Assembly (NCBI GenBank): GCA_947468275.1
Contig: CANIKO010000012.1
Span: 1-64,000, forward strand
Source of the DNA: Bacteroidota bacterium
Lineage (GTDB): Bacteria > Bacteroidota > Bacteroidia > NS11-12g > UBA9320
Direction: 5' to 3'
Length of the DNA: 64,000 nucleotides
Shown here: positions 107-36,264 of the stretch, piece by piece
Position numbering within the stretch: position 1 is the stretch's first letter
Layout: each line of letters begins with the position of its first letter
Notes under the pieces: generated by a model
What the model saw: the letters and a program-made list of their open reading frames with translations, nothing else
Database searches by the model: none
What the model was told of the DNA's origin: nothing
Translations under genes and position numbers: made by a program

Positions 107-231
107 CTCTAACAAAGATCTGCTTCCATCCGGGTGATGGTATTTGGATTTCTAATAATTGATTAACTTTGTGTAACGATATTTATAAAATGATGCGTTC
201 CCGGCCGGCAGCAGGCCTTGGACCGTTATAG
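107..231 (+). repeat. attC-like recombination site 1
   Basis: The left core CTCTAAC lies at 107-113 and the right core GTTATAG at 225-231. Between them the arm at 117-134 is complementary to 200-217 in 13 of 18 positions plus wobble pairs, giving an imperfect hairpin with a long loop. The left core differs by one base from the complement of the right core. That is expected if the left core belongs to the upstream cassette, whose start should then read GTTAGAGGTCA. This is the weakest of the six sites, and its loop does not show the clear TTTGTG repeats of the others. Confidence 0.5.
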
Positions 232-286
232 CCAATTGCAAAAGACCACAACAGTACAACTACAATTAATTTAAAAATATAAATAC

Positions 287-787
287 ATGAAAAAAATATC
301 AATAATTTTAATTATTTCAGTTCTTTTTGTAACATTCAATGCATGTGATAAGCCTTGTAATGAAAATTTGAGAATTGGCGAAATCATTCAAATTCCTATA
401 CTATTCAATGGTTTTAGCCTTTCGGAAATAGACAATATAATTATTTATCGTGTGGACAAATCAGGAATTAATACAATTGACACTTTCTTATTAAGAGATA
501 TTCTTTGGGCGAATTCAGCTCGTACTACAAATGAAATAATTACGGACAAAAAACCTGGAAAGGTAGCTGGTAGTTATGATGAATATGAAAGTTATTTTGA
601 TAAGTGTGATTTGATTTTTGAATGGCAGAATGGGAAAGACACTCTTTCTAATTTTGAAATTACTAAATCACAAGAAAGCATAAAAGTATGTAATAAAAAT
701 GATCCAAATGTGCAAATCGACAAATTCTCATTTGTTCATAAGGGCAAAATTATCGCTAAAAATGAACAAATTCAAATAAGCAAATAA
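287..787 (+). CDS. Small lipoprotein of unknown function (cassette gene)
   Basis: The 166-residue product begins with a lysine-rich N terminus and a hydrophobic stretch ending in FNACDK, a likely lipoprotein signal with the lipidated cysteine near residue 20. It is therefore probably anchored to a membrane facing the periplasm or the outside. The mature part has several cysteines (CDKPC early, two later) and no domain I recognise. It is the only gene between attC-like sites 1 and 2, starting about 60 bp after the first core and ending about 55 bp before the second site. This is the geometry of a single-gene cassette. The ATG at 287 is preceded by an AT-rich stretch with no Shine-Dalgarno, which is normal in Bacteroidota. 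Confidence 0.75.
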   Translation: MKKISIILIISVLFVTFNACDKPCNENLRIGEIIQIPILFNGFSLSEIDNIIIYRVDKSGINTIDTFLLRDILWANSARTTNEIITDKKPGKVAGSYDEYESYFDKCDLIFEWQNGKDTLSNFEITKSQESIKVCNKNDPNVQIDKFSFVHKGKIIAKNEQIQISK

Positions 788-842
788 TATTAATTTTTTG
801 AAACACTATAAATTTAACAGTGGAATGAAAACAGAACAACTG

Positions 843-977
843 GCTATAACATGGGTTTGGCAAAAGTGGGGCTTTAGTACTTGTCTGAACATTTGTACTT
901 TCTATTAGCTTTTGTAATAAATTTGAACTTTAGTACTTTCTAAACCCCACCTTCGCCAAGCCCAAAAACGTTATAGC
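843..977 (+). repeat. attC-like recombination site 2
   Basis: The left core GCTATAAC is at 843-850 and the right core GTTATAGC at 970-977. The stem pairs GGGTTTGGC (853-861) with GCCAAGCCC (955-963), and GTGGGG (866-871) with CCCCAC (945-950). The small unpaired AAAA/CTT bulge between the two helices resembles the spacers of attC stems. The loop (872-944) contains four degenerate TTTGTACTTT-like repeats spaced about 18-20 bp. Stem sequences match those of site 4 at 31419-31556, so two stem families exist in the window. Confidence 0.75.
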
Positions 978-15676: not shown

Positions 15677-16435
15677 TTAGTTAATTAATTCTAATTGATC
15701 CTCCATATTATTTGGCAACATTTTTCTTAAAGATTCCCCTTTAAGTTCTATCCTGTGAGCACTGTGTATCAAGCGATCCAGAATGGCATCGGCAATGGTT
15801 TGTTCTCCAATAACCTCATACCATTTGTTGACAGGAACTTGTGAAGTAATAATGGTTGATCCTTTACCATGTCGGTCTTCTATGATTTCCATAAGCATCG
15901 CTCGGCTTTGAGCATCGAGGGGTTGTATTCCAAAATCATCAATAATAATCAATTGCTGGCGTTCCATTTTTGCTATTTCGGCAATATAGGAGTTATCTGC
16001 TTTGGCCATTTTTAGCTTCGCAAAAAGTTTACTTGAGTTTAGGTACATAACATGGTATCCAAGTGTACAGGCTTGTTGGCCTAGTGCGGAGGCAAGGTAG
16101 CTTTTGCCAATGCCGGTGCTACCTGTGATAAGGATGTTCTCATTGCGATTAATAAAGGTGCATTCTGCAAGCCTCATAATAAGGTTCTTGTCCAAGCCAC
16201 GATCTGCCTCGAAGAACATCTGTTCAATAGAGGCTTTGTAGCGGAACTTTGCATTGCTTAGCATACGTGCAATCTTTCGGTTATAGCGATCGTCCCACTC
16301 TTCATCTATGAGGTGGGCCACCATTTCATCACTCGTCAGTTGATTTGTTTCTGCTGATTCAAGGCTCAAACGGAAGGCTCTAAGCATTCCGTAAAATTTC
16401 ATACTCTTCATTTTTTCAATAATTTCTGTGTTCAT
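15677..16435 (-). CDS. istB: IS21 helper ATPase IstB
   Basis: The 252-residue AAA+ ATPase related to DnaC assists the IstA transposase in target capture. Walker A is GSTGIGKS at 105-112, Walker B is LIIIDDFG near 165, and the tail RLIHSAHRIELKGES is characteristic of IstB. It follows istA after 27 bp. Intact. Confidence 0.95.
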   Translation of the reverse strand: MNTEIIEKMKSMKFYGMLRAFRLSLESAETNQLTSDEMVAHLIDEEWDDRYNRKIARMLSNAKFRYKASIEQMFFEADRGLDKNLIMRLAECTFINRNENILITGSTGIGKSYLASALGQQACTLGYHVMYLNSSKLFAKLKMAKADNSYIAEIAKMERQQLIIIDDFGIQPLDAQSRAMLMEIIEDRHGKGSTIITSQVPVNKWYEVIGEQTIADAILDRLIHSAHRIELKGESLRKMLPNNMEDQLELIN

Positions 16436-16462
16436 ATTTGTTTTTATTTAATGGTTATTTTT

Positions 16463-18010: not shown

Positions 18011-18096
18011 AATTCTATTAATTTCGAAGTATGCAAAGCATACTGAAATCTTTGGAAATTATGACCTGCAAAACAGCAGAGCCTTCATTTATTTCA

Positions 18097-18192
18097 GGTG
18101 GACCTTTTTGCCGCGGAATAGGTGGGTCTTTTTGCCGCGGAATAAGTGGACCCTTTTACCACGGATTCAGTGGACCTCTTTGCGCGGATTTT
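18097..18192 (-). repeat. Four tandem 24-bp terminal repeats of the IS21 element (istA side)
   Basis: Units at 18097-18120, 18121-18144, 18145-18168 and 18169-18192 share the pattern RGTGGRCCYTTTTGCCGCGG. The first two differ at only three or so positions, and the outer units are more divergent. The remaining 18193-18317 holds no gene. Confidence 0.8.
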
Positions 18193-23138: not shown

Positions 23139-24221
23139 ATGAAATGGCAAGCAAAAAGTATAATGTATAAAGGCCAAAGCAGGATTGCCGTATATTTTAA
23201 AAATACACCTGAACTAAATAATAGGATAAAACAACTTGAAGATGCTAAATGGAGCCAAACACTAAAAGTTTGGCACTTGCCCAATACCAAAGAAAACAAG
23301 ATAAAGTTTGGATTAATGCCATCGGCATCTACTGTATCAAAAACTACAAATACCTTAGAAATTGATTCCATTAACAAAATAATTCAATTTCAACAATGGC
23401 TTAGGAGCAAACGATATAGTGAAGCTACTGTAAAAACATACAGTGAAGCTTTGAAAACCTTCTTAAATTTTTATTCAAACAAACCAATAAATGAAATAAA
23501 CAATCAGGATGTAATATATTTTAACAATGAGTTTATACTTCGCCATGAGTTATCAGCCTCATATCAAAACCAAGTTGTAAATGCCATTAAGCTATTTTTT
23601 GCAAAAATTGAAAATACAAACTTAGATGTTGAATTAATACACCGACCTAAAAAATATAATCCTTTACCAAAAGTATTGGCAGCTGAGGAAGTAGCCTTAA
23701 TAATTAATGCCCTTGATAATATTAAGCACAAATGCATGATGAGCTTAATATACTCAGCCGGTTTAAGACGAAGCGAATTATTGAATATGAAAATTCATGA
23801 TATTGATAGCAAACGGATGCAATTATGTATTCGTAAATCCAAAGGAGGAAAGGATAGAATTGCCCCATTAAGCGAAACAGTATTGCAAATTTTAAGGCAA
23901 TACTATAAGGATTATAAGCCAAGCGATTACTTATTTGAAGGGCAAGGTGGAGAACAATACAGCGAAAGGAGTTTAGCCTTGGTATTAAAAAAAGGATGCT
24001 TACTGGCAGGCATTAAAAAACCAGTAAATCTTCATATGCTGCGACACAGTTATGCCACCCATCTTCTCGAATCAGGAACAGACTTGCGCTACATTCAAGA
24101 ACTATTGGGGCATAAAAGTAGTAAAACGACCGAAATCTACACTCATGTTAGTCAGCAATCAATTAATAAAATAGGCAGCCCCCTTGATAAACTAAATATA
24201 AAAATAGGAGGAAACGAATAA
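23139..24221 (+). CDS. Tyrosine recombinase, candidate integrase of the cassette array
   Basis: The 360-residue tyrosine recombinase breaks and rejoins DNA through a 3'-phosphotyrosine. It has an extra N-terminal module (1-60, with WSQTLKVWHLPN), a SAM-like core-binding domain (about 82-165) and a catalytic domain. All catalytic residues are present: Arg210 (SAGLRRSEL), Lys235 (SKGGKDR), His299 and Arg302 (HMLRHSYATH), His325 (LLGHKS), Tyr334 (EIYTHV). The C-terminal GSPLDKL resembles the SPLD tail of integron integrases. The extra IntI helix between the Lys and HxxR motifs is not seen. It lies 5' of and co-oriented with the cassettes, with only a terminator and the attI-like site between. 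XerC/D house-keeping function is less likely given the extra N-terminal module. Assignment as cassette integrase is inference from position. Confidence 0.85.
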   Translation: MKWQAKSIMYKGQSRIAVYFKNTPELNNRIKQLEDAKWSQTLKVWHLPNTKENKIKFGLMPSASTVSKTTNTLEIDSINKIIQFQQWLRSKRYSEATVKTYSEALKTFLNFYSNKPINEINNQDVIYFNNEFILRHELSASYQNQVVNAIKLFFAKIENTNLDVELIHRPKKYNPLPKVLAAEEVALIINALDNIKHKCMMSLIYSAGLRRSELLNMKIHDIDSKRMQLCIRKSKGGKDRIAPLSETVLQILRQYYKDYKPSDYLFEGQGGEQYSERSLALVLKKGCLLAGIKKPVNLHMLRHSYATHLLESGTDLRYIQELLGHKSSKTTEIYTHVSQQSINKIGSPLDKLNIKIGGNE

Positions 24222-24225
24222 AAGC

Positions 24226-24275
24226 AAAAAACTTCCTCCTATATTCGCATTTAAGGATATAGGAGGAAGTTTTTT
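24226..24275 (+). terminator. Strong terminator after the recombinase gene
   Basis: A perfect 19-bp inverted repeat pairs 24226-24244 with 24257-24275, has a 12-base loop and ends in T6. It isolates recombinase transcription from the cassettes behind it. Confidence 0.9.
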
Positions 24276-24290
24276 AGAAAAAGAGTTTCC

Positions 24291-24310
24291 GCTATAACTA
24301 AGTTATGTGC
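24291..24310 (+). other. attI-like insertion site of the array
   Basis: GCTATAAC at 24291-24298 and GTTATGTGC at 24302-24310 form two inverted core sites only 3 bp apart, with no hairpin arms. The right core is complementary to the left core of site 3 (25506-25514), so it marks the start of cassette A. It may be a true attI or an attC site whose stem was lost. Confidence 0.5.
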
Positions 24311-24358
24311 AACCCTTGGACAAATTAAACTTTGAAACAATAATTCAGTCGAATATAT

Positions 24359-25486
24359 ATGAAAAAAATTATACTATTTATCAGCTTGACCATAATAACA
24401 CTGACTTCGGTTTTTTGTCAAAACGTGTATGACAGCATTTATGTTGGTAATCGTTGGCGTACTTACATGACGCACCTTCCAATTGGATACAATCCCTCTA
24501 ATCATTATCCATTGGTCTTAGCATTTCACGGAGGAAGTCCTTTGGGTTATCAATCAATTCAATATCAATCAGGCCTATCCCAAAAGGCAGACACTTCAAA
24601 CTTTATTGTGGTTTACCCAGAAGGCGTAAAGGTTTCAGGTAATAGGACTTGGAATGCAGGTGGCTGTTGTGCTCCTGCAACTACTCTAAATATTGACGAT
24701 GTTGGATTTGTTAATTCATTATTGAATAACCTATTTACCGCAAGACCAATTGATACGACTCGTGTTTATGCAACTGGATTTTCAAATGGTTCATTGCTTT
24801 GTTACCGTCTTGCAAATCAATTGACACACAGATTCGCTGCAATTGCTCCGGTAGCAGGTGATTTGATGTATTATCCTTGGAATCCATCGAGAGTTATTCC
24901 AATTATAAGTTTCCATTCCTATTTAGACCAAAATGTAAAGTATTTTGGAGGAATAACAGTTGGGGCAACAGGAACTTATTTCCCTCCTCAAGATAGTATG
25001 TTCAATATAATCAGTTCAAATTATAATTGCACGGTATTGAAAGACACATTATATCACAATGTCAGTCAATACGACCACTTTAAATATTCAAATTGTTCTT
25101 GCAACTCGGTTATAGAACAATATGTTAGTTATGATGGTGAACACTCTTGGCCTGGTGGACTTGCTTCAGGGGGTGTTACGGTAAGCAATCAGTTTAGTGC
25201 AACATATTTAATGTGGCAATTTTTTCAGAACTATACCACTACTTGTTTGACAACAGGAATTAACAATATTCCCGATAAGGTACACTCGAAAGTATATCCC
25301 AATCCTTTCACTGACAAAATCAATTTGACAAACACAACAGGTATGGAAAACTATATTTTATTAAATTCAATTGGGCAGGTAATCTGGACTGGTACGAAAG
25401 TAGAGCAAACCGATTTTTCATATTTGACAAACGGTCTTTACTTCCTGAAAGTTGACAGCAGAGTGATTAAATTAATTAAAGAATGA
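24359..25486 (+). CDS. Secreted PHB-depolymerase/feruloyl-esterase-like hydrolase with T9SS sorting domain (cassette A)
   Basis: The 375-residue protein has a signal peptide (cleavage near VFCQ, residue 20). Its alpha/beta-hydrolase domain is of the LpqC/poly(3-hydroxybutyrate) depolymerase type: oxyanion-hole region LAFHGGSP, nucleophile Ser142 in TGFSNGS, and a catalytic His in DGEHSWPGG near 255. NRTWNAGGCC near 95-104 is a family hallmark. From VYPNPFTD (about 311) a T9SS C-terminal sorting domain runs to the end, so the enzyme is expected at the cell surface or outside. The natural substrate may be an ester-linked polymer, but this cannot be specified. It starts about 57 bp after the attI-like core and ends 20 bp before site 3. 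Confidence 0.8.
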   Translation: MKKIILFISLTIITLTSVFCQNVYDSIYVGNRWRTYMTHLPIGYNPSNHYPLVLAFHGGSPLGYQSIQYQSGLSQKADTSNFIVVYPEGVKVSGNRTWNAGGCCAPATTLNIDDVGFVNSLLNNLFTARPIDTTRVYATGFSNGSLLCYRLANQLTHRFAAIAPVAGDLMYYPWNPSRVIPIISFHSYLDQNVKYFGGITVGATGTYFPPQDSMFNIISSNYNCTVLKDTLYHNVSQYDHFKYSNCSCNSVIEQYVSYDGEHSWPGGLASGGVTVSNQFSATYLMWQFFQNYTTTCLTTGINNIPDKVHSKVYPNPFTDKINLTNTTGMENYILLNSIGQVIWTGTKVEQTDFSYLTNGLYFLKVDSRVIKLIKE

Positions 25487-25505
25487 TATGCAGGAAAAAA
25501 GGGCA

Positions 25506-25642
25506 GCACATAACAGCACCTACAAGAAATTGGCGGTTCAGTGGTTAAATGAAGCTTTGTGCTTCGTATCAAGTTTTGTGCTGGCAGACAGTTTAGTGCT
25601 TCGAAATCGCCAACTTCTTGTAGCTGCAAACCGTTATAGGGC
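25506..25642 (+). repeat. attC-like recombination site 3
   Basis: The left core GCACATAAC is at 25506-25514 and the right core GTTATAGGGC at 25633-25642. The stem CTACAAGAAATTGGCG near the left core pairs in 15 of 16 positions with the segment just before the right spacer. The loop contains four TTTGTGCTTC-like repeats about 18-20 bp apart. Its left 40 bases are almost identical to those of sites 5 and 6, as in the homogeneous repeats of large chromosomal integrons. Confidence 0.8.
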
Positions 25643-25845
25643 ATTGTAAAACGACAGACAGAAAAGTAAATCGACAGACAGAAAATGAAAAGAAAAGCCA
25701 ACGCTTCGACAAAATCAAAAGAGGTGCAACCCAACACACAAGCCGACACACAGTTGCACCACATTTGCTTTTGCCCCAACGCACCAGCAAAACGACAAAT
25801 GACTGCAAATTTTAATACTTTTGACAACTAACACTTTGAAGCATA
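25643..25845. repeat. Leader of cassette B with hairpin-forming repeats
   Basis: The GACAGACAGAAAA motif occurs twice at about 25652-25685. An inverted repeat GAGGTGCAAC / GTTGCACC follows, and related pieces (GTTGCAC, ATTTGC, TTTTGCC, CCAACGCA) recur at the other end of the same cassette at 31285-31370. A TACTTTTG promoter box is at 25816-25823. No gene is seen. Confidence 0.45.
25816..25823 (+). promoter_or_regulatory. Putative -7 box for the defence operon
   Basis: TACTTTTG fits TAnnTTTG and lies 22 bp before the ATG at 25846. A matching -33 TTTG at the right distance is not clear, so the call is tentative. Confidence 0.35.
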
Positions 25846-27825
25846 ATGACAGCTATAATAATAATCGCAATAATAATTTTTATAATCTATGCCGCTTCGA
25901 GCAAGAAAAAACCGACCCAACAAAACACGACAAATACAAATCCCAACAACAAACAAAAATCTGAAAAGGAAATTCGAGATGAATTAGTGCAAAGTCTTAT
26001 TAAAAACATCAAAGTTACAGTGACGACATCAAGCGCAACAAGCAAATATAATGACGACTCAATTATTGATGTCACAGACCAATCCTACAGAATAAACTCA
26101 AATAGTAATTTGAAAAAATACAGTAGTGGTGTGCCCTACTGGGCACACCACTATGTTTATTCTTATTCTGAAATCAATAGTGCATCAAGTGAACAAAAGA
26201 AGTTCTACGCTATTTTCAAAAACAGCTTTTTAAATGGAGAGTATTTTGATTTAGAAGGAAACACGAATTATGCTTTCATTCTATTATTTGACTTGCTTAT
26301 TGAATTTGACAATCATAAAGACATATCTAAACTTGAAAGCCAACTTAAAATTTTAGGACAATGCTATCCAAAAACGAAATCATATGGTATATCATTCCTA
26401 ATTCAAAAAATGGAGGCAAATGGCGACAGTGATGGCGTTTCAAGACTTAGAGCAGAAGACAGATATAGTTATCAAAACTACAACACAGATTACGACTATT
26501 GGAGATTAGGGAGTAAGTACAAAACCAAACTAAAACTGAATGACGAAGAAGTTAAACTCCTAAACAAACTATGGTATCCGAGCAATAACTTTTGCAGTGT
26601 TGAATATTGTTGTATTGAAATTTTAAAACTCTATATTACTGTCATTGAAGAGTTAAAAGCCAGTTACATTGCGGAAGGAACAACAATTGATGCTCAATTC
26701 TTAACGGTTGCAGATGTAATTGCAAGAAAACATTTTAAATACAAGAATGGAAGTCAGAATTACAAGTATTGTATTGAAACAACAACCAATGAATTTTACT
26801 CTCATATTTTCAAACATTGTGAAAATGCCGTTCGTGAATATTACGGACATAAGAGAAAAATAAACACTGACACCTATTATACAACAGTAGAAGCAAAGAC
26901 GGAATTTGAAACTAAAATAATTTCCAAAGTATCAGGATTGCTACCCGTACTTATTTCTAAAGTTTCGGCACCAGACGAAGCCACAGAAATTGAATTGTAT
27001 TCACAAAATACAAATCGGTGGAAAATAAAGTTCGAGGAGTTAACTACACGCTATAATGAAAAGCCTAAAGAGTTTATTGATTCAATTGTCGCTGTTGGTA
27101 AACTAAATAAAAAGAATCCATCAATTGAAAATATTTTTTTTGAAGCATCAAAATTTATTGCAAAATATGATAAGGAATCAGCTCTTTCACTTTATGTTCA
27201 TTACTTATTTCACGATTTAAAATCTGCCACTTTCGATAATAAACAACTCACAAAAACTATTCAGAAAAGTTTATTCAAAACTAATGAACAATTACACGAT
27301 TTTGAAATAATTGTTAGTGAGTTAATCAAAGACAAAGATTTAGAAAAAGCATTAAAAAATGTTTCCAAAGTTTATGAAGTGAAACGAAAGAAAATACAAC
27401 TTAATAAAACTTCAATACAAGAAGTTCAGCAACAACACTCCGGAACTGTTGAACTACTTAATGAATATTTAAAAGACGATTTTGAGGATGAGAACAATTC
27501 TATAAAGTCGCAAGAAATAAACAATGAAGAAATAAAAATCGAAATCACGCAGAAAAGTGAAGAGACCTCTCATTCTGCATTTGTTAGCAACTTGACATTC
27601 TCCCCAATACACATATCGGCTTTGGAGCTTTTCTCAAAGAGTAATTTTTCAATTCCACAAAGCGAACTTGAAATATTTGCAAAATCAAAAGGCATCTTTA
27701 AAAATCAATTAATCGAAAGCATTAATGAAACTTGCTATGATTTTTTAGATGATGTATTGATTGAGGAAGAAGACGATTATTACACAATTAACACAAACTA
27801 TTTTCAAAGAATTTCTGTACAATGA
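25846..27825 (+). CDS. TerB-N/TerB-C domain protein, first gene of a BREX-related defence module (cassette B)
   Basis: The 659-residue protein starts with a membrane anchor (ITAIIIIAIIIFIIYA). The part at about 85-200 fits TerB-N: FYAIFKNSFLNGEYFDLEG, then YAFILLFDLL. The C terminus (about 575-655) fits TerB-C: a wHTH-like stretch ending in SINETCYDFLDDVLIEEED. TerB-N/TerB-C proteins belong to Ter-linked stress and conflict systems. It overlaps the BrxD-like gene by 4 bp. This points to a complex with the ATPase and helicase, perhaps anchored to the membrane. Domain calls rest on my reading of motifs, with no profile search. Confidence 0.65.
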   Translation: MTAIIIIAIIIFIIYAASSKKKPTQQNTTNTNPNNKQKSEKEIRDELVQSLIKNIKVTVTTSSATSKYNDDSIIDVTDQSYRINSNSNLKKYSSGVPYWAHHYVYSYSEINSASSEQKKFYAIFKNSFLNGEYFDLEGNTNYAFILLFDLLIEFDNHKDISKLESQLKILGQCYPKTKSYGISFLIQKMEANGDSDGVSRLRAEDRYSYQNYNTDYDYWRLGSKYKTKLKLNDEEVKLLNKLWYPSNNFCSVEYCCIEILKLYITVIEELKASYIAEGTTIDAQFLTVADVIARKHFKYKNGSQNYKYCIETTTNEFYSHIFKHCENAVREYYGHKRKINTDTYYTTVEAKTEFETKIISKVSGLLPVLISKVSAPDEATEIELYSQNTNRWKIKFEELTTRYNEKPKEFIDSIVAVGKLNKKNPSIENIFFEASKFIAKYDKESALSLYVHYLFHDLKSATFDNKQLTKTIQKSLFKTNEQLHDFEIIVSELIKDKDLEKALKNVSKVYEVKRKKIQLNKTSIQEVQQQHSGTVELLNEYLKDDFEDENNSIKSQEINNEEIKIEITQKSEETSHSAFVSNLTFSPIHISALELFSKSNFSIPQSELEIFAKSKGIFKNQLIESINETCYDFLDDVLIEEEDDYYTINTNYFQRISVQ

Positions 27826-29135
27826 TAGATAACATTAAACCTAAAGAAGCTACATCAATTATCAATTCCTTAATTGGTGGCGTAGTTCCAAAAATCGGAG
27901 TTCAACACATTACAGTTGGGCGTTCGGAAGAAATAAATGCCGTTGTTGCTGCATTAGAAGATGTAAAGAATGGGCATAGTATGGTAAAATTCTGGATTGG
28001 CGACTTCGGTTCAGGCAAATCATTTATGCTTCATTTACTCAACACTGTTGCTTTGAAGCAGAAATTTGTGGTAGCAAATGCTGACTTTACCCCTGACAAT
28101 CGTTTGTATTCAAATGACGGAAAAGGAGTTGCTCTCTATTCTGCCATTATGGATAATGTTTCCATTCAAACTAAGCCAGAAGGCGGTGCATTACCAACTT
28201 TGTTGGAAAAGTGGATTGAGCAAATTGTAACTAAAACTGCCGAAGAAAATAAAATTTCATTGACAGATATTCGCAATGAACAATACTTGAATCTCATTCA
28301 AAACAACATAATGAAAACTATTAATGAAATCACTGATGTAGGTGGTTTCGACTTTGGAATGGTTGTAATGAAATACTACGAAGGCTACATAAAAGATGAT
28401 GAACAATTAAGAAGGAATGCTTTAAAATGGCTAAAAGGAGAATACAGAACCAAAACGGAGGCAAAGCAAGATTTAGGAGTTAGAGAAGTAATTAATGATT
28501 TGAATTACTATGATATGCTAAAAAACTTCTGTAAACTCTTTGTAAGTATGGGTTATAGCGGATTTTTGGTAAATCTTGACGAAGCTATAAATCTTTACAA
28601 GATTTCAACTTCTGTAATGAGGGAGAAAAATTACGAGAAAATATTAACCATTTACAACGATTGTTTTCAAGGTAAAGTAGCAAATCTGTTTTTTAATTTT
28701 GCAGGTACAAAAGAAGTTTTAGAAAACGAACGCAGAGGACTTTTTAGTTATAATGCTTTAAAGTCAAGGCTTCTTACAAATAAATTTGAAACAGCAGAAT
28801 TAAGAGATTTTGCACAGCCAGTAATTCGTTTAATGCCACTTGACCACAACGAAATATTTGTACTGTTGAAGAAATTGAAAGCAATCTTTGATTACAATTA
28901 TAAAACTGAAATTTCCATAAGTGATAACGAAATTCACCAGTTTATGGAGGAGCTGTTTAACAAGCCTGGTGCATCAGAATTTTTAACCCCAAGAGAAGTA
29001 ATTCGAGACTTTTTGAATATTCTAAACATCATTAGACAAAATCCAACAGTAGATAAAAATAAGCTATTTGGTGAACTTGAAATTTCGGATGAAAGACCTA
29101 ATGAAGTTTCTTTAGACAGCATTGAAGAATTATAA
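27822..29135 (+). CDS. BrxD-like ATPase (DUF2791 family)
   Basis: The 437-residue P-loop ATPase has Walker A GDFGSGKS at 60-67 and Walker B FLVNLDEAINL near 246. LIGGVVPKIGVQHITVGRSEE at the start and the phrase NADFTPDNRLY behind the P-loop are typical of DUF2791, the family of BrxD in type 2 BREX. It overlaps the TerB-N gene by 4 bp and the helicase by 1 bp, so the three proteins are made together in a fixed ratio. PglX, PglZ, BrxC and PglW are absent, so this is not a full BREX system. Confidence 0.75.
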   Translation: MIDNIKPKEATSIINSLIGGVVPKIGVQHITVGRSEEINAVVAALEDVKNGHSMVKFWIGDFGSGKSFMLHLLNTVALKQKFVVANADFTPDNRLYSNDGKGVALYSAIMDNVSIQTKPEGGALPTLLEKWIEQIVTKTAEENKISLTDIRNEQYLNLIQNNIMKTINEITDVGGFDFGMVVMKYYEGYIKDDEQLRRNALKWLKGEYRTKTEAKQDLGVREVINDLNYYDMLKNFCKLFVSMGYSGFLVNLDEAINLYKISTSVMREKNYEKILTIYNDCFQGKVANLFFNFAGTKEVLENERRGLFSYNALKSRLLTNKFETAELRDFAQPVIRLMPLDHNEIFVLLKKLKAIFDYNYKTEISISDNEIHQFMEELFNKPGASEFLTPREVIRDFLNILNIIRQNPTVDKNKLFGELEISDERPNEVSLDSIEEL

Positions 29136-31261
29136 TGTCATTTGATTTACTTTCAGAACCAATACGAAAATTCATTCGTGATAAGGGTTGGGAACAATTG
29201 CGACCAATTCAAACAGCAGCTATTGCCAAAATTTTAGCATCGGACGACAATTTTATTTTGGCATCACGGACTGCATCAGGAAAAACAGAAGCCGCATTTT
29301 TACCAATTCTTTCAAAAGTTAATTTCAATGATTCAGGTGTTCAAGTTCTTTATATTTCACCGTTAATAGCTTTGATTAATGACCAATTTTATCGTATTGA
29401 AGAACTTTGCAAAAATCTTGATGTAACAGTCACTAAGTGGCACGGTGAAGCAAATAAAACACTCAAAGAAAGACTAATTAAACAGCCCAATGGAATTGTT
29501 CTAATTACACCCGAATCATTGGAGGCAATGTTTGTAAACAAACCTTACAATGTAAAGCAATTATTTTCAAATCTAAAGTATGTAGTAATTGATGAGATAC
29601 ACTCATTTATTGGAACGGACAGAGGTATTCAATTAAAATCAATTTTGTCAAGACTACAAAAAGTTAATTCTAAATCATTCAGTATTGTTGGCCTTTCGGC
29701 AACAATTGGGGATTATGATGAAGCCAAAAAGTTCACAGGTGATGAATTAAAAACAAAGGTTCTTTTAGACAGAACAGCTAAAGAAATCAATGCACTATTT
29801 CGTTATTTCAAAAACAAAAACGAAGAGTTGCCTTTGGAGCTTTTAAAAGATTTATATATTGAGACCAAAGACAATAAAGTTCTAATTTTCCCTAACAGTA
29901 GAGGACGAGCCGAAGAAGTAGCAGTAAAACTTAGAAAAATATCGGAAAGAGTAAAAGGACATCCCAATTATTTTTCACATCATTCATCTGTAGACAGAGA
30001 AGTAAGAGAGTATGTTGAATACTTTGCGAAAAATAACAATCGGCAAAACTTCTGTATTTCCTGCACATCAACATTAGAACTCGGTATTGACATTGGAACT
30101 GTTGATGAAGTTGTTCAAATTGATGCAACACATAGTATAGCTTCATTAATTCAACGAGTTGGCAGAAGCGGCAGAAAGGAAGGAGAAAGTAGTAATTTGT
30201 ATTTGTATGCCACAAATGAGTGGAGTTTACTTCAATCAATAGCTTGTTGGTTATTATACAAGGAAGGTTTTATCGAACCACCTCAAAAAAATGAGAAAGC
30301 ATATGACATTTTAGTTCATCAAGCATTATCAATAACCAAAGGACATTCAGGCATAAGATTAACAGAATTAATAAATCAACTCCAAGAAAATGCAGCGTTT
30401 CAGCAAATTGAACTTTCAGAAATTGACGAAATACTTAAACATTTAATTGAAATTGATTTTCTTGAAAAATTGCAACACGAAGTTATAATTGGTGTGGAAG
30501 GCGAAAAGGTAGTAAATAGCCGTGACTTTTATAGCGTATTTAAAACAGAAGAAAACTTTAAAGTTGTAAATGCTGGCAATACAATAGGTGAGATACCATT
30601 TTCACCACAAATTATTGAGGATGAAAATATTTTGCTTTCTGCTAAAATTTGGAAAATAAAATTCGTTGACCACAAGGCGAAAAAAATAGAAGTAATACCA
30701 ACAAAGGACGGAAAAAAACCAATGTTTTTTGGAGGTGGAGCTACTATACATCAAAGAATAAGAGAGAAAATGTTTGAAGTTCTCTATTCTAAAACGGACT
30801 ACGATTTTCTTGACCAACCAAGTTGTGATGAAACAGAAATACTTCGAAAAGACTTCTCTGTTTTCAACATTAAGGACTTACAATCCGACAGACCATTACT
30901 AACAGCAGAAAAAAACTTACAACTCTTTACATTCACTGGGACAAGAATAAACAGAACTATTCAATTGCTTTTAAATATTGCAGGGATTAAAAATACGCTT
31001 GATGACAGCAGTAGTTCATTTGACATTGAAGTGCCTAAACAAGAGTTGATATCAAGATGGAGTTATTTATTATTTCCGCTGACAGACATTGATACACACA
31101 TATCAACCCTTTTGCAGACAAATCCTGCCCTATTAGATTTTTCTAAATGGGGGACATATTTACCAGACAACTATAAAATCAAACTTGTAAAGGACAGATA
31201 TTTTGACATTGAACAAACTGCACAACTTTTAAGAACTATGAAACTAATAGAAAACGAATAA
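29135..31261 (+). CDS. BrxHI/Lhr-like DEAD/DEAH-box helicase
   Basis: The 708-residue SF2 helicase has Q-like motif LRPIQTAAI at 22-30, Walker A SRTASGKT at 44-51, Walker B DEIH at 153-156 and motif III SATIGD near 190. Motif VI is QRVGRSGR. The C-terminal half resembles Lhr-type helicases, matching the BrxHI helicase of type 2 BREX. It starts on the last base of the BrxD-like gene stop. Cassette position and companions suggest antiphage activity; this is inference. Confidence 0.8.
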   Translation: MSFDLLSEPIRKFIRDKGWEQLRPIQTAAIAKILASDDNFILASRTASGKTEAAFLPILSKVNFNDSGVQVLYISPLIALINDQFYRIEELCKNLDVTVTKWHGEANKTLKERLIKQPNGIVLITPESLEAMFVNKPYNVKQLFSNLKYVVIDEIHSFIGTDRGIQLKSILSRLQKVNSKSFSIVGLSATIGDYDEAKKFTGDELKTKVLLDRTAKEINALFRYFKNKNEELPLELLKDLYIETKDNKVLIFPNSRGRAEEVAVKLRKISERVKGHPNYFSHHSSVDREVREYVEYFAKNNNRQNFCISCTSTLELGIDIGTVDEVVQIDATHSIASLIQRVGRSGRKEGESSNLYLYATNEWSLLQSIACWLLYKEGFIEPPQKNEKAYDILVHQALSITKGHSGIRLTELINQLQENAAFQQIELSEIDEILKHLIEIDFLEKLQHEVIIGVEGEKVVNSRDFYSVFKTEENFKVVNAGNTIGEIPFSPQIIEDENILLSAKIWKIKFVDHKAKKIEVIPTKDGKKPMFFGGGATIHQRIREKMFEVLYSKTDYDFLDQPSCDETEILRKDFSVFNIKDLQSDRPLLTAEKNLQLFTFTGTRINRTIQLLLNIAGIKNTLDDSSSSFDIEVPKQELISRWSYLLFPLTDIDTHISTLLQTNPALLDFSKWGTYLPDNYKIKLVKDRYFDIEQTAQLLRTMKLIENE

Positions 31262-31418
31262 AATTGAACAATACGTTTGACATATCGCCAACGCTATTGG
31301 TTGCACATTTGCATTTTTGCCAATACACAATCCCAACGCAAAAAATGCAAAAGAGCAACCAAGCCAACGCACAACGACAGACCATAGCGGACAGACAAAC
31401 ACAACCGAAAAAAACAAC
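31262..31418. repeat. Long imperfect hairpin at the end of cassette B
   Basis: TTGGTTGC and TTTGCATTTTTGC around 31290-31315 pair with GCAAAAAATGCAAA and GCAACCAA around 31340-31370. The stem has about 20 paired bases and a three-base internal bulge on each side. It may act as a terminator for the defence operon. Related words occur at the front of the same cassette (25712-25790). Confidence 0.5.
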
Positions 31419-31556
31419 GCCCTATAACACGGGTTTGGCAAAAGTGGCGGTTCAGTGCTCCGCAGACACATTTGTGGTTCATCAAAGTTTGGTTCTCCGC
31501 ATCAACATTTGTGGTGAAAATCGCCACCTTCGCCAAGCCCGAAAACGTTATGCACA
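31419..31556 (+). repeat. attC-like recombination site 4
   Basis: The left core GCCCTATAAC is at 31419-31428 and the right core GTTATGCACA at 31547-31556. The stem pairs GGGTTTGGC with GCCAAGCCC and GTGGCG with CGCCAC, the same stem family as site 2 at 843-977. The loop carries four TTTGTGGTTC-like repeats. The left core is the exact complement of the right core of site 3. Confidence 0.8.
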
Positions 31557-31602
31557 AAAGCAATTCCGACATCTAAAATAAAAAAATCGTTTATCCAATT
31601 AC

Positions 31603-31634
31603 TTTGATTTTCCGCTTAAATTAATTTACTTTTG
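31603..31634 (+). promoter_or_regulatory. Promoter inside cassette C
   Basis: TTTG at 31603-31606, a 20-bp spacer and TACTTTTG at 31627-31634 make a full match to the Bacteroidota consensus, 28 bp before the start of the first gene. The cassette thus carries its own promoter. Confidence 0.6.
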
Positions 31635-31662
31635 ATTCAAGTTTTAAAAATTATAAGATGAT

Positions 31663-32163
31663 ATGGCAAAAAATTACACTTTAACAAAATCAGGAACAAC
31701 AGGCTGGTGGATATGGGCTTGTAAAGATGGAAGCAATTCAGGTTCTTCTACATCTAAAAAGGAAGCTAAAGAACAAGGAAAGGCAAATTGTACTTCTGGA
31801 ATTATTATCATACCTCCAAAATTTGATGCAACCTACGATAATGGCTATTTAAGTAGTTTTGCGGCTGCGAACTTAGATGAAGTAAAGACTACTTTTAGTG
31901 CTGGTGAAATTAATGAAGATTTGTTTGATTTCTTTTTCGGGTTAAACTGTCCAACATTTTCAGATTTAGATGAAACAGACAGATGCGTTGCAGTTTTTAA
32001 GATTTGGGGCGTTTATCTCAAAGGAGGTGTAAATAAACCCGAGATATTACTACTTTACAATTTAACTGAGCCTCAATTTCAAAAGATAATAAACAAAGAC
32101 TATATAGATGTTCAAATTACAATTGACGATAACCTTAATTATACTTGGGTTTTTCCTATCTAG
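31663..32163 (+). CDS. Hypothetical protein (cassette C, first gene)
   Basis: A 166-residue soluble protein with no recognised domain. The N terminus KNYTLTKSGTTGWWIWACKDGSNSGSSTSKKEAKEQ looks like a small beta-hairpin unit rich in Trp, Gly and Ser, and the rest is acidic and globular. No signal peptide. Its 3' end overlaps the next gene by 56 bp in another frame. Confidence 0.65.
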   Translation: MAKNYTLTKSGTTGWWIWACKDGSNSGSSTSKKEAKEQGKANCTSGIIIIPPKFDATYDNGYLSSFAAANLDEVKTTFSAGEINEDLFDFFFGLNCPTFSDLDETDRCVAVFKIWGVYLKGGVNKPEILLLYNLTEPQFQKIINKDYIDVQITIDDNLNYTWVFPI

Positions 32164-32698
32164 TTTTATTTTTACACATAGTAGAAATAGAACTCCCCCA
32201 GGCACCACTTTAGTTAAAGAAGTTGGATATTGGATAGATAAAGAAGAAATAAAAATAGCTGACTGGCAAGAATTTTATTTTTATATTAAAAACGCATATG
32301 GTGTTGATTCCGCCAGTACAATAATACCTGACACCAACCTTATAAAAAAGCACTTCTACCTACAATCTTATAGTGGATTAACACTTAAAGAGAAATATAA
32401 ACTTCCCATAGTTGGGGTTACATTGTATCAAATTATGCTGTATTGTAAATTCAGGACAGAAGTTGTAAATTATAAATATAAATCTAACTTTGAATACACG
32501 CCACTCAAAATTGAGATATTTGATTATTTGAACTCCAAAGGGAAAAAGGTTAGGAATTTGAACCCTATTGGCTCAAATGTGCCGGAAATTGTAGTAATCT
32601 CAAATGACAGTATAAAGATCGCAAATCAAATTCACCGGAACATCAATAATGAAGATAATTTATTTTTTGGATTTAGGTGTATAGTTGTGAAAATTTAG
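32108..32698 (+). CDS. Hypothetical exported or membrane-anchored protein (cassette C, second gene)
   Basis: The 196-residue product has a hydrophobic start (LTITLIILGFFLSSFIF) that acts as a signal anchor. No domain is recognised after it. The start lies 56 bp inside the preceding gene. Since the signal is encoded in the overlap, I regard the overlap as real. The pair may work as a unit (soluble plus anchored partner, possibly toxin and immunity), but the sequence gives no direct support for that. Confidence 0.6.
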   Translation: MFKLQLTITLIILGFFLSSFIFTHSRNRTPPGTTLVKEVGYWIDKEEIKIADWQEFYFYIKNAYGVDSASTIIPDTNLIKKHFYLQSYSGLTLKEKYKLPIVGVTLYQIMLYCKFRTEVVNYKYKSNFEYTPLKIEIFDYLNSKGKKVRNLNPIGSNVPEIVVISNDSIKIANQIHRNINNEDNLFFGFRCIVVKI

Positions 32699-32730
32699 TC
32701 TAAGCTTTTAATTCTATAAGTAAGAGCTTC

Positions 32731-32869
32731 TGTGCATAACAGCACCTACAAGAAATTGGCGGTTCAGTGGTTCGTATGACAGTTTTGTGGTTCAACAAAC
32801 ATTAGTTTTTCAAATCAAGGTTTGTGGTAAAAGTCCCGCCCTTCGGGTAGCTGCAAACCGTTACCAGTA
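32731..32869 (+). repeat. attC-like recombination site 5
   Basis: The left core TGTGCATAAC is at 32731-32740 and the right core GTTACCAGTA at 32860-32869. The left arm equals that of sites 3 and 6, but the right arm (32838-32857) has drifted. Only GGCGG/CCGCC and CTAC/GTAG still pair well, so the stem has a larger internal bulge. The loop has the phased TTTTGTGGTTC repeats. Confidence 0.75.
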
Positions 32870-32874
32870 ATTTT

Positions 32875-33336
32875 ATGACAACACAAAACGACATATTTCC
32901 ATCAGACTTTAAAGCAATTCTTGAAAGTTTATACTATCAAGAAAATGGTGGACTTGTTATCTCATCATTGAATTATATAAATAACAACCTTAAAGTTTTG
33001 TTCACCCTTTCATATGGCGACAACGAGACACCAGAGCAAATTTGGCAACTTGACATCGTAGACATTGAAAAAGAACGATTTGTTAGAGACTGGGCAACTT
33101 TTCCAGAAATTTATTCTGACCACTTCTTACTTTATGAATTTATCGACAACTACATAGAACTTTACTTTAACGGTGCGACATCAAATCCCGAAAAATTACT
33201 TGCTGACCTTTATAATTTACATATTTCAAATTACAGTAACGACCTTGACTTTGGACTAGGAATAAATGCACCAAACGGAATGCTAAAGCTATGCACGAAT
33301 GACAATGGTTTGTTTGCGAAAAGTTTCCAAACCTAA
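32875..33336 (+). CDS. Hypothetical protein (cassette D, first gene)
   Basis: A 153-residue acidic protein with no signal and no domain I know. Its ATG is only 15 bp behind the crossover point of site 5, so the cassette has no room for a promoter or leader. Transcription must come from the preceding cassette or from the att site itself. It is followed after 4 bp by the carboxylesterase. Confidence 0.6.
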   Translation: MTTQNDIFPSDFKAILESLYYQENGGLVISSLNYINNNLKVLFTLSYGDNETPEQIWQLDIVDIEKERFVRDWATFPEIYSDHFLLYEFIDNYIELYFNGATSNPEKLLADLYNLHISNYSNDLDFGLGINAPNGMLKLCTNDNGLFAKSFQT

Positions 33337-33340
33337 TAAA

Positions 33341-35029
33341 ATGACAGCAAAAAATATTTATGAAGTTTTCACAAAAGATAGTCACATTTTAAAAGGCCAT
33401 ACAGCTGAACTAAAAGGAGTTACTTATAAAGGATTTCAGTCTTATGCTGATACTACAATACAATTTAGGGGTTTACCCTATGGAAGTGATACTTCTGGAA
33501 ATAACAGATTCAAGTACGCTGAACTTTTTACCACTTCTTCCAAAGAAATCGATTGCACCAAATATGGCCCAGCTTGTTGGCAACATCCAGTTGGAGCTAG
33601 AATGATTTACGAAGGACTTGGCGTTTTGTTAAAAGAAGGCCTTTTCCCATCAACAAAAAAAGGTAGTTCTTTAATTTACGGAGATTTTAGTGAGGACTGC
33701 CTCAATTTGAATCTTTGGACGCCCAAGTTAGATGAAGAAAAACGTCCTGTCCTAGTATGGATTCATGGAGGTGCTTTTAAAAGTGGTAGTAATATTGAAT
33801 GTGAACTTTATAATGGAAACCACTTAGCTCAACGAGGAAATGTAGTAGTTATTTGTTTAAATTATAGATTTGGGATGTTTGGTTTTAACTTTCCAGAAGA
33901 AAACAGAACCAATATTGCTTTAAGTGACCAAATATTAGGATTAAAGTGGATACAGGAAAATATTTCACAGTTTGGTGGTGATCCAAATAATGTGACAATT
34001 TTCGGAGAAAGCGCAGGCGGGATATCCGTGGCATCGCTTTTAGGAAGTCCTATGGCTAAAGGATTGTTTCATAAAGCAATTTGTCAAAGTGGTGGCGCAG
34101 AAAACATGACCAAACAAGAGTTTAATCACTTAACAATAGCAGCAACTAAAAGTTTTAAATTGAATACCTCTAACACTTTGAGACCAGAAGATTTATTAAC
34201 TATCGAACCTGATATATTAGTTAAAAAAGGATCAAAAATTGAAGAAACATTAGAACATAATGGAAGTAGTAAAATTGGATTCATGCCCATTATTGATGGC
34301 AAGTATATATGTGAAGAAGGTACATTAAATGCTATTCAATCTGGTAAAGGATCCAAGATACCGTTATTGGTTGGTTCTAATGCGGAAGAAATGAAATTGT
34401 TTTTCGCTTTGCTTGGCTGGTTATCTCCCTTCGATGAAAAAACAGTGTTAGCAGCTATTAGACAACGTTTTAATTTAGTCGAAATAAATGAGCCAAAGGA
34501 AACTTATGAAAAATTAAAAGAAATTAGTGAGCAACTTAAAGCTTTAACGGAGAAAAAATTACAAAATAGCTTGAATGTAACACCAAAGAAAAAACAAATT
34601 TTAGAAGCTTTATTAACTTTTCTTCAATTTACCATTCCTTCATACGAACTAGCTGAGGCTCAAAACAATGCAGAATGTGATGTTTATTCTTACATATTAA
34701 ACTATGGGTCAGAAAAATATGGTGCTTGCCATGGGATTGATTTACAATTACTTTGGAATTTCGGACATCCAAATGAGGACTATTTTAGTAACGGAAAAAA
34801 TAAAGTTATTTCCGAGAATCCTAAAGCAGCACCTTTAGCTCGTTTTGCAGAATCCATTCAAGATGCATGGATACATTTTGCATGGTATGGAAAACCAGCA
34901 TCTATTGAAAAAAATGAATGGAAAGCCTTTCCGAATAGAATGGATTTGGATTTGTCTTCTTCAACTTCCAATTGGAACAACGATGAAATGATTATTTATT
35001 GGAAGTCGGTACGGTCGATTTTTAAATAA
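33341..35029 (+). CDS. Type-B carboxylesterase (cassette D)
   Basis: A 562-residue alpha/beta-hydrolase of the carboxylesterase B / cholinesterase family. It shows EDCLNLNLW near 119, oxyanion HGGAF at 142-146 and nucleophile Ser224 in FGESAGG. An acid is probable in VGSNAEEMK and the His in ACHGIDLQLLW. I chose the ATG at 33341, 4 bp after the preceding stop, over an upstream in-frame ATG at 33299 that would overlap the upstream gene by 38 bp. No signal peptide, so it is cytoplasmic. Substrate unknown. Confidence 0.85.
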   Translation: MTAKNIYEVFTKDSHILKGHTAELKGVTYKGFQSYADTTIQFRGLPYGSDTSGNNRFKYAELFTTSSKEIDCTKYGPACWQHPVGARMIYEGLGVLLKEGLFPSTKKGSSLIYGDFSEDCLNLNLWTPKLDEEKRPVLVWIHGGAFKSGSNIECELYNGNHLAQRGNVVVICLNYRFGMFGFNFPEENRTNIALSDQILGLKWIQENISQFGGDPNNVTIFGESAGGISVASLLGSPMAKGLFHKAICQSGGAENMTKQEFNHLTIAATKSFKLNTSNTLRPEDLLTIEPDILVKKGSKIEETLEHNGSSKIGFMPIIDGKYICEEGTLNAIQSGKGSKIPLLVGSNAEEMKLFFALLGWLSPFDEKTVLAAIRQRFNLVEINEPKETYEKLKEISEQLKALTEKKLQNSLNVTPKKKQILEALLTFLQFTIPSYELAEAQNNAECDVYSYILNYGSEKYGACHGIDLQLLWNFGHPNEDYFSNGKNKVISENPKAAPLARFAESIQDAWIHFAWYGKPASIEKNEWKAFPNRMDLDLSSSTSNWNNDEMIIYWKSVRSIFK

Positions 35030-35233
35030 AAAATCTGATTTGAGTATTGAGAATTACTTATTTATTAAAAAAAGTAAATCTGTATGTTAAATCAGACTGT
35101 TGCAATTTATTTTTCCTAAGTATTTACTATTTTTGAATAAACTATCTCTCGGTTTTGGTTCCAGATAAGCACCGAAAATGGAGTGTATATTACTATTTTT
35201 AGAAACTATATGAACTAATTAAACCTAAATAAC

Positions 35234-35668
35234 ATGGCAAAGACAAACATCTACTTAAATTTTCAAGGGAATGCTGAAGAAGCGTTCAACCTGTATAAAT
35301 CGGTTTTCAATACAGAGTGGGCAGCTCCTATTATGCGTATGGGCGACATGCCTCAACAAGAAGGAATGCCTCAACTTTCAGAGGAAGAAAAAAAAATGGT
35401 TATGCATGTATCACTTCCAATTTTAGGAGGAACAAACATCATGGGAACAGACATTTTAGAAAGTATGGGGCACAAACTAACTATTGGTAATAATACTACT
35501 ATAAGTTTAGAACCGGATACAAAAGAAGGGGCAGATAGAATTTACAACATACTTTCTCAAGGAGGAACTGATTGTGTTGCTCCACACGAACAATTTTTGG
35601 GGTACTGGGGTGTTTGTCTTGATAAATTTGGGATACGCTGGATGTTTAATGTACCAAATCAATACTAA
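35234..35668 (+). CDS. VOC family protein, PhnB-like (cassette D)
   Basis: A 144-residue vicinal-oxygen-chelate fold protein of the PhnB/DUF3861-like group (TNIYLNFQGNAEEAFNLYKSVF; MHVSLPILGGTNIMGTDILES; GYWGVCLDKFGIRWMFN). Small members are glyoxalase/bleomycin-resistance relatives, and no substrate can be assigned. The 204 bp in front carry a TATTTTTG box at 35128-35135 but no gene. Confidence 0.8.
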   Translation: MAKTNIYLNFQGNAEEAFNLYKSVFNTEWAAPIMRMGDMPQQEGMPQLSEEEKKMVMHVSLPILGGTNIMGTDILESMGHKLTIGNNTTISLEPDTKEGADRIYNILSQGGTDCVAPHEQFLGYWGVCLDKFGIRWMFNVPNQY

Positions 35669-35701
35669 AAGATAAATTCTACACTTACTAACTTAGGTTA
35701 A

Positions 35702-36109
35702 ATGAAAAACAAAATTGGAACAAAGGAAAAACCGCTTATTTTAAAAACACCTCCTTTATCAAGTGAATATACCATGCATGTAGACGAAAAAGATGGTAAA
35801 GAACTATTGGTTTGTAAGGTTGGTAAAACAGTTTTGCATTACGATGCAAAAATTCTTGACGATTTACATGCGATGCTAAAAAAGCATGGCGACTGGATTG
35901 AACTTGGCAGTGCAGACGAACAAAAACCTGCAAAAGACGGAACAGTTGAAGCTTGGGGGCGTTCAGAAAAAAATCCTATAAAAGGTTGGTATGGTTTGAA
36001 AAAAGGTTTGAGAGGTAGAGTAGGAATGTATATTCCACCACTAATGGAAGCGCTTGGACTTGCAGAAGTGACCCACGATGCAAAGGGAAATAAGATGAAA
36101 GCAAAGTAA
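35702..36109 (+). CDS. Small conserved protein, possibly DUF6855-like (cassette D, last gene)
   Basis: A 135-residue basic soluble protein with TPPLSSEYTMHVDEKDGKE and KNPIKGWYGLKKGLRGRVG stretches. I believe it is of a conserved small family (DUF6855-like), without known function. It is 33 bp behind the VOC gene and ends 18 bp before site 6. Confidence 0.6.
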   Translation: MKNKIGTKEKPLILKTPPLSSEYTMHVDEKDGKELLVCKVGKTVLHYDAKILDDLHAMLKKHGDWIELGSADEQKPAKDGTVEAWGRSEKNPIKGWYGLKKGLRGRVGMYIPPLMEALGLAEVTHDAKGNKMKAK

Positions 36110-36127
36110 CCGCAGACAGAAAAGCAC

Positions 36128-36264
36128 TACTGGTAACAGCACCTACAAGAAATTGGCGGTTCAGTGGTTAAATAAACATTTGTGCTTCGCATCAAGTTCA
36201 GTGCTGGCTGACAGTTTTGTGCTCCGAAATCGCCAACTTCTTGTAGCTGCAAAACGTTAAACTA
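36128..36264 (+). repeat. attC-like recombination site 6, end of the array
   Basis: The left core TACTGGTAAC is at 36128-36137 and is the exact complement of the right core of site 5. The right core GTTAAACTA is at 36256-36264. The stem is the same as in site 3. No further site follows. 36265-36470 holds no gene that I recognise, only AT-rich sequence with a GC-rich patch near 36280-36300. Confidence 0.8.

Follow-up and report, generated by a model that had tools for sequence, protein, structure and literature searches.

Integron integrases (IntI) carry an insertion that is termed essential for integron function (PMC8138268). A further paper describes it as necessary for cassette capture and absent from other proteins, states that its I2 helix confers single-strand recombination, regards this helix as what made integrons possible, and names the missing intermediates as a limitation (PMC7790495). 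IntegronFinder identifies IntI through this insert (PMC9668308), and Bacteroidota are listed among the integron-bearing phyla in PMC8618304 and PMC9668308. According to the 2021 survey, the insert is ‘not fully conserved’ in an integron-like subgroup of tyrosine recombinases, and the excerpts of that survey leave arrays, attC sites and Bacteroidota unmentioned for the insert-less members (PMC8138268). Among the matches listed in a search of open-licence PMC texts (titles and abstract openings), we found no I2-less or HARP-bearing integron integrase and no such arrays in Bacteroidia, and none that dealt with HARP joined to a tyrosine recombinase; an earlier description may nevertheless exist. 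The window analyzed here, a 64,000-nucleotide stretch of DNA from a Bacteroidota genome, holds a tyrosine recombinase gene followed by an array of cassettes. We class the locus as an integron variant and not as IntI, and we hold with good confidence that it is an integron-type platform whose XerA-like, I2-less integrase bears a HARP-like module, and that it probably follows the principle of integrons.

The array's presumed integrase is a tyrosine recombinase of 360 amino acids with an ATG start (23139..24221, on the forward strand, as are the parts of the array and the solitary cassette described below). The six catalytic residues listed in the initial annotation (Arg210, Lys235, His299, Arg302, His325 and Tyr334) are all present and are invariant in 25 of 25 aligned homologues; in an earlier set of eight homologues, Arg302 is replaced by His in L017. 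Pfam returned Phage_integrase (3.6e-43) plus SAM_4 for the protein, and XerA structures are among its best PDB matches. Of the NCBIfam models, NF040815 (XerA; ‘site-specific tyrosine recombinase/integron integrase’) scores 230.3, above its cut-off of 220, and TIGR02249, the IntI model, reaches 206.3 against a cut-off of 265, with the match split into two stretches. The recovery of a proper IntI-specific domain by such a search had been named beforehand as the result that would make this an ordinary IntI, and none was recovered. The C-terminal SPLD, noted at the outset as an IntI-like tail, does align with the SPLS of IntI4 (2a3v).

The stretch between Lys235 and His299 had been described as missing the IntI helix, and four tests, namely the IntI model, the alignment to 2a3v, the motif spacing and the AlphaFold model, agree that the recombinase is without the IntI-specific insert. 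The two motifs are 64 residues apart here versus 106 in 11 of 11 IntI measured (12 were taken, and one lacked a recognizable motif). In the whole survey of 149 proteins, with copies of the window gene counted in and 15 proteins without recognizable motifs, L001, another recombinase of the same genome, has a spacing of 72, and the 122 proteins measured apart from IntI and L001 fall within 62-71. The alignment to IntI4 ends at query residue 254 (IntI4 179) and restarts at 276 (IntI4 244), so that about 43 residues are absent, and the AlphaFold model (mean pLDDT 84.6, pTM 0.57), considered by itself, places two helices between the motifs, at 246-259 and 276-290.

Relatives of the recombinase are found in several settings. 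A second integrase of the same family is encoded near the end of contig C7 of the same genome (the G000:C7 paralogue, 57%), and no attC-like site was found in the 12 kb around it, close to the contig end. Related recombinases (H10-H20; 42-49% identity, partial cover) reside on Klebsiella, Aeromonas and Acinetobacter plasmids, where some of them adjoin IS26. A plasmid of a rainbow-trout Chryseobacterium (L191, NZ_CP041688.1) carries an array with four sites past the integrase and with a group II intron and an IS110 element among its genes; next to the plasmid copy of the integrase in C. oryzae, 9 kb of sequence contain no site. Among phages, 29 records contain relatives, none of which covers 80% of the query.

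Directly past the integrase gene, a predicted intrinsic-terminator-like hairpin (24226..24275) is followed by an attI-like site (24284..24310, left limit approximate) with its crossover GTT at 24302-24304 and the first R box, ATGTGC. Four cassettes follow, sharing one reading direction with the integrase. Their limits are fixed by reverse-complementary hexamers, one directly past each GTT and its partner directly before the next AAC: ATGTGC (24305) and GCACAT for cassette 1, ATAGGG and CCCTAT for cassette 2, ATGCAC and GTGCAT for cassette 3, ACCAGT and ACTGGT for cassette 4. Cassette 1 (24303..25633) contains an ORF (24359-25486) for a PHB-depolymerase-like esterase (below the models’ cut-offs) with a T9SS sorting tail, and its attC-like site occupies 25506..25635, with AAC from 25512 and GTT to 25635. 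Cassette 2 (25634..31547, 5.9 kb; attC-like site 31420..31549) contains a complete Shango operon, all three proteins of which are encoded adjacently: SngA (25846-27825, E 1.1e-46), SngB (27822-29135, 5.5e-168) and SngC (29135-31261, 3.4e-216). Cassette 3 (31548..32860) has two ORFs (31663-32163 and 32108-32698), neither with a Pfam family above its cut-off, and a site with a diverged right arm (32732..32862); cassette 4 (32861..36256) has ORFs from 32875, 33299 (a carboxylesterase), 35234 and 35702, and the final site of the array (36129..36258). The array sites are 124-125 nt long, carry AACA and CGTT at their two ends and have pairing arms, and their 13-base repeat core, allowing up to two mismatches, has four matches in the window, a number reached in 0 of 100 shuffles. 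Within the window, no Rfam family reached its gathering threshold and no tRNA gene was found.

A solitary cassette of the same type (226..970; ORF 287-787, site 842-972) is present 22 kb from the integrase; the bases preceding its own site are complemented exactly by GTTATAGCC at 225. The host bases past this site, ATAGCA, match its own R box, ATAGCC, at 5 of 6 positions, and this likeness is perhaps a trace of secondary-target choice. Further attC-like sites are scattered in the same genome (C4:64963, C29:577, C20:64446, C7:156131 and C11:85099, among 10 of 13 matches). Elsewhere in the window there are two adjacent minus-strand ORFs (15677-18010), which by eye resemble an IS21-type istA/istB pair, and three tandem 24-nt repeats (18096-18167).

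The complementarity between cassette start and end extends to the related arrays. Over 69 consecutive site pairs, at least 6 of 8 positions agree in 59, 4-5 in five and at most 2 in another five; the mean is 6.03, compared with a shuffled mean of 2.59 and a maximum of 3.23 in 2000 shuffles. Clear IntI arrays of the phylum carry the same 6-nt R box, and hence R-box complementarity is common to integrons. The 61 R-box-confirmed cassettes have a median length of 834 bp, and the longest ORF lies on the cassette strand in 59 of them. An attI junction, searched between integrase and first site as GTT plus the first-cassette R box with no more than one mismatch, is present in 36 of 36 loci, where chance would give 2.25, and in 28 of them it is 57-224 nt past the integrase stop. 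Upstream of it, 29 loci share the motif CGnaTATAaanNAGTT, which was outside the search criteria (seven distant or doubtful loci were excluded from this set). Thus, an attI beside the integrase gene, which is a criterion for an integron, and tandem co-oriented cassettes with one attC each are both found.

The same GTT is also the point at which related platforms part. In one genome with two platforms (G018), the sequences are identical at 1100 of 1100 nt until the GTT and then unrelated (55/200), and two other genomes (G135 and G321), about 91% identical across 6.9 kb, part at the same GTT point. A relative of window cassette 1 (73% over 453 nt) stands behind an attC in a Chitinophaga MAG, with the homology beginning from GTT; it is the one cassette common to the window and another locus in an all-against-all blastn of the window and 99 loci. 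Such platform divergence is the trace that site-specific cassette exchange would be expected to leave, and the cassette boundaries, the attI junction and the divergence at GTT can be taken as established, in so far as sequence comparison can establish them. One could still suppose a degenerate IntI lineage that has lost the insert and whose arrays are immobile relics, considering that the site grammar is as in IntI attC and that the top Foldseek match of the recombinase is IntI4 2a3v. We give this supposition very little credence: the motif spacing stays at 62-71 in the 122 proteins outside IntI and L001, the catalytic residues are kept in all 25 aligned homologues, and differing cassettes stand behind platforms identical over 1100 nt.

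If the recombinase moves these cassettes, its relatives should sit beside the same repeats, a test set in the initial annotation. A first detector, looking for AAC...GTT with an inner palindrome and thus requiring palindromic arms, found similar sites near homologues, mostly of 122-127 nt, and two matches in 1.02 Mb of shuffled sequence. A covariance model, R1, was then trained on 46 sites, 34 of them from the 80 related loci, and returned 128 matches at E<=0.05 on 97 sources. At 38 bits or more, the downstream sites of the 80 loci number 91 on the integrase strand and 0 on the other, with five sites upstream in 613 kb. At least one downstream site is present in 28 of the 80 loci and in 17 of the 34 with at least 3 kb of flank; of all 80 loci, 24 have less than 1 kb of contig remaining. 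Within the window’s own family, nine of 15 loci with an integrase have downstream same-strand sites and four have none; the exceptions are one locus with only an upstream site (L036) and one with only an other-strand site (L038).

Since R1 was trained partly on these 80 loci, further samples weigh more. Among 296 genomes of the window’s class (probably Bacteroidia, from named relatives), R1 sites occur in at least 216 and the integrase (E<=1e-85) in at least 156, both counts being lower bounds as at most 11 site and six protein candidates were scored per genome. Sites are present in 148 of 156 integrase-positive versus 68 of 140 integrase-negative genomes (odds ratio 19.6, p=1.4e-20; both 148, integrase alone 8, sites alone 68, neither 72); the window genome and a few of the training genomes are among those sampled, and related genomes are not independent. 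The expected association is therefore borne out by genome counts and by strand, though only for the 28 of 80 loci that have a downstream site, and may be considered established at the level of comparison. No R1 site was found in 16 non-Bacteroidota genomes, a search run without an accompanying positive control.

It is conceivable that these are ordinary IntI cassettes, in clusters without an integrase of their own (CALIN), moved in trans, with the neighboring recombinase as a bystander. The clear-array sites obey the AAC...GTT and 6-nt R-box grammar of IntI attC of the phylum, and IntI is common in the phylum sample, above cut-off in 85 of 296 genomes. However, only one of these 85 is marked as the window’s class, and in the window genome no IntI was found at E<=1e-70. 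R1 reaches 28 bits at best across 16 IntI regions, whereas three regions of the I2-less integrase have 4, 2 and 4 sites scoring at least 38 bits. Of the phylum’s genomes, 30 with IntI were compared: R1 sites occur in five of five that also have the I2-less integrase and in five of the 25 others. In the five two-enzyme genomes, IntI is encoded on a separate contig or at a distance of about 1.9 Mb or more, and in four of them the I2-less integrase has its nearest site within about 2 kb: G135 and G321 have sites following this integrase on the same strand, with additional ones on a further contig in G321, G194 has one site 1 kb upstream of it, and G273 has two within about 4 kb on the opposite strand and two others at a great distance; the site of G129 is on a contig that does not carry the I2-less integrase. 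Moreover, the conserved platforms stop at the junction beside the I2-less integrase gene. Taking all this into account, we see scarcely any chance that IntI acts here in trans, and we return to the adjoining I2-less enzyme as the presumed integrase.

The sites differ from IntI attC in how their strands may be distinguished. Extrahelical bases are absent in 63 of 80 R1 sites versus 0 of 20 IntI attC of the phylum; each of these 20 controls, which come from four IntI regions selected out of 16 for their clear arrays, leaves 1-4 bases of a single arm unpaired. When the aligner admits gaps more freely, 58 of 94 junction-supported sites are without unpaired arm bases and 36 have 1-4; a detector tolerant of gaps raised the number of supported sites by just two. 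Mismatches in the arms are polarized, 130 reading A.C in the top strand and G.T in the bottom one and 35 having the opposite polarity (p=5e-14), and one arm position is A.C in 43 of 46 sites. The more stable hairpin is formed by the bottom strand in 60 of 80 sites and by the top in 18 (p=2e-6), a bias that the IntI control shows weakly (12 vs 6 of 20). The scarcity of extrahelical bases and the bottom-strand stability bias thus both appear from comparison of sites. In the window, three of the four sites fold on the bottom strand with z of -3.3, -2.7 and -3.6; for site 3, neither strand outperforms its shuffles (bottom strand, z +0.46). The arms covary with a score of 0.636, which is at most 0.13 when slid; this measure is partly circular because the detector demanded palindromes.

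These features bear on whether the substrate is single-stranded at all. A conventional double-strand system of the Xer/dif-module kind would use short double-stranded cores, and the long hairpin would be incidental. The lack of the I2 insert and the XerA-like score are in line with this, as are the common motif CGnaTATAaanNAGTT at attI and the published statement that I2 confers single-strand recombination (PMC7790495). Yet the R-box bases vary from cassette to cassette while complementing bases one cassette away, which recognition by sequence would not keep, and the covariation of the arms, with its partial circularity, and the bottom-strand bias also argue the other way. We consider a double-strand system improbable, and we infer, on the strength of sequence patterns, that the substrate may be single-stranded and that this enzyme would perform the exchange.

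What might take the place of I2 is suggested by the N-terminus. The initial annotation had pointed to an added module at residues 1-60, and residues 4-56 are predicted to form an alpha/beta module (beta-beta-alpha-beta-beta-alpha), HARP-like by profile (residues ~4-56, 23148..23306). A profile of 22 relatives’ N-termini searched against PDB matches the HARP domain of SMARCAL1 (4o66) at 2.3e-4, with the runner-up at 0.61, and Pfam HARP (PF07443) matches five of the 22 N-termini, best 7.9e-6, the window copy not being among them. Within the whole protein, Pfam gives nothing for residues 1-60 at E<=0.1, and these residues scanned alone have as their sole match DUF5659 at 0.046, below cut-off, with no HARP. 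Foldseek with the module ranks 4o66 first, as a weak match (E 0.67); VIA-align gives no Z>=5, and among its best 50 rows SMARCAL1 is absent and XPB N-terminal domains appear at Z 3.0-3.8. The module is present in 28 of 28 array integrases, in 10 of 17 without an array in at least 3 kb (p=0.0004) and in 0 of 12 IntI, as judged by a profile built partly from array members. HARP is described as important for fork reversal, the title of the original cited for it contains ‘structure-specific’, and T4 UvsW also bears HARP (PMC4666394).

Perhaps, then, the module takes over the gripping of folded attC that the I2 helix performs in IntI; this is the least certain step of our consideration, and we put it forward tentatively, as somewhat short of an even bet. 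Alternatively, the module could be a phage-type arm-binding domain for accessory double-stranded sites near attI rather than a hairpin gripper. N-terminal arm-binding domains are frequent in tyrosine recombinases of mobile elements (PMC8138268), and the module is small and alpha/beta. Its predicted beta-beta-alpha-beta-beta-alpha topology, however, departs from the three strands and one helix that the same paper gives as canonical, and the profile and Pfam matches favor HARP. We regard an arm-binding role as unlikely, if worth bearing in mind, and keep the structure-reading role as our working proposal.

Regarding descent, a phylogeny including IntI had been suggested at the outset. In our quick tree, IntI forms a single clade (SH-aLRT 100) apart from all other rows, and the array bearers are scattered through the non-IntI remainder. 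Two other recombinases of the window genome, L001 and L004, presumed to be XerC/XerD, are placed on long branches inside the tree, which leaves it without a root. Loss of the insert, a separate origin and a pre-I2 ancestry remain, each compatible with the unrooted tree. The initial annotation had offered ‘a separate origin or a simplified version’ of the integron principle. The association of sites with the integrase and the divergence at GTT uphold the integron principle, but ‘simplified’ undersells an enzyme to which a HARP-like module has been added.

In the mechanism we propose, the bottom strand of a cassette attC would fold into a long hairpin, the integrase would recognize the shape of this hairpin and not its sequence, and one strand would be exchanged at G|TT with the double-stranded attI beside the integrase gene. 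The 56 cassette proteins represent very diverse cargo by the family assignments among the matches listed, and defense-like cargo among these matches includes Shango, type IIG restriction, GmrSD, AriA-like and Old-like proteins. We think it rather likely that this amounts to a second way of running integrons, in which an I2-less, HARP-bearing family takes cassettes from single-stranded hairpins and wobble pairs, not extrahelical bases, mark the strand. This family, with sites in most sampled genomes of the class, would either have arisen apart from IntI or keep a pre-I2 state. It is a widespread array-associated recombinase family without I2, its sites mostly lack the bases that I2 docks, and its enzyme carries another candidate reader of DNA structure, the HARP-like module. 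Such a family opens the origin of single-strand cassette capture to experiments on present-day proteins.

Compared with known systems, the locus is close in layout to the chromosomal IntI integrons, with which it shares an integrase beside the array, tandem co-oriented cassettes, AAC...GTT hairpin sites, the 6-nt cassette-specific R box and the junction at GTT. The sites are mostly 114-122 nt long in the three clearest IntI arrays and 122-127 nt here. In contrast to IntI integrons, the integrase gene here points into the array, in the reading direction of the cassettes; the enzyme is about 41 residues shorter between the motifs and has the HARP-like module added, and the arms of its sites mostly lack extrahelical bases and have A.C (top)/G.T (bottom) mismatches in their place. 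With XerA, the archaeal Xer (NF040815, 5hxy, 4a8e), the enzyme shares the catalytic and core-binding domains; the N-terminal module and the adjoining cassette arrays set it apart from XerA. The HARP domain of SMARCAL1, to which the module has a weak fold match, sits on a helicase, whereas the module described here sits on a tyrosine recombinase.
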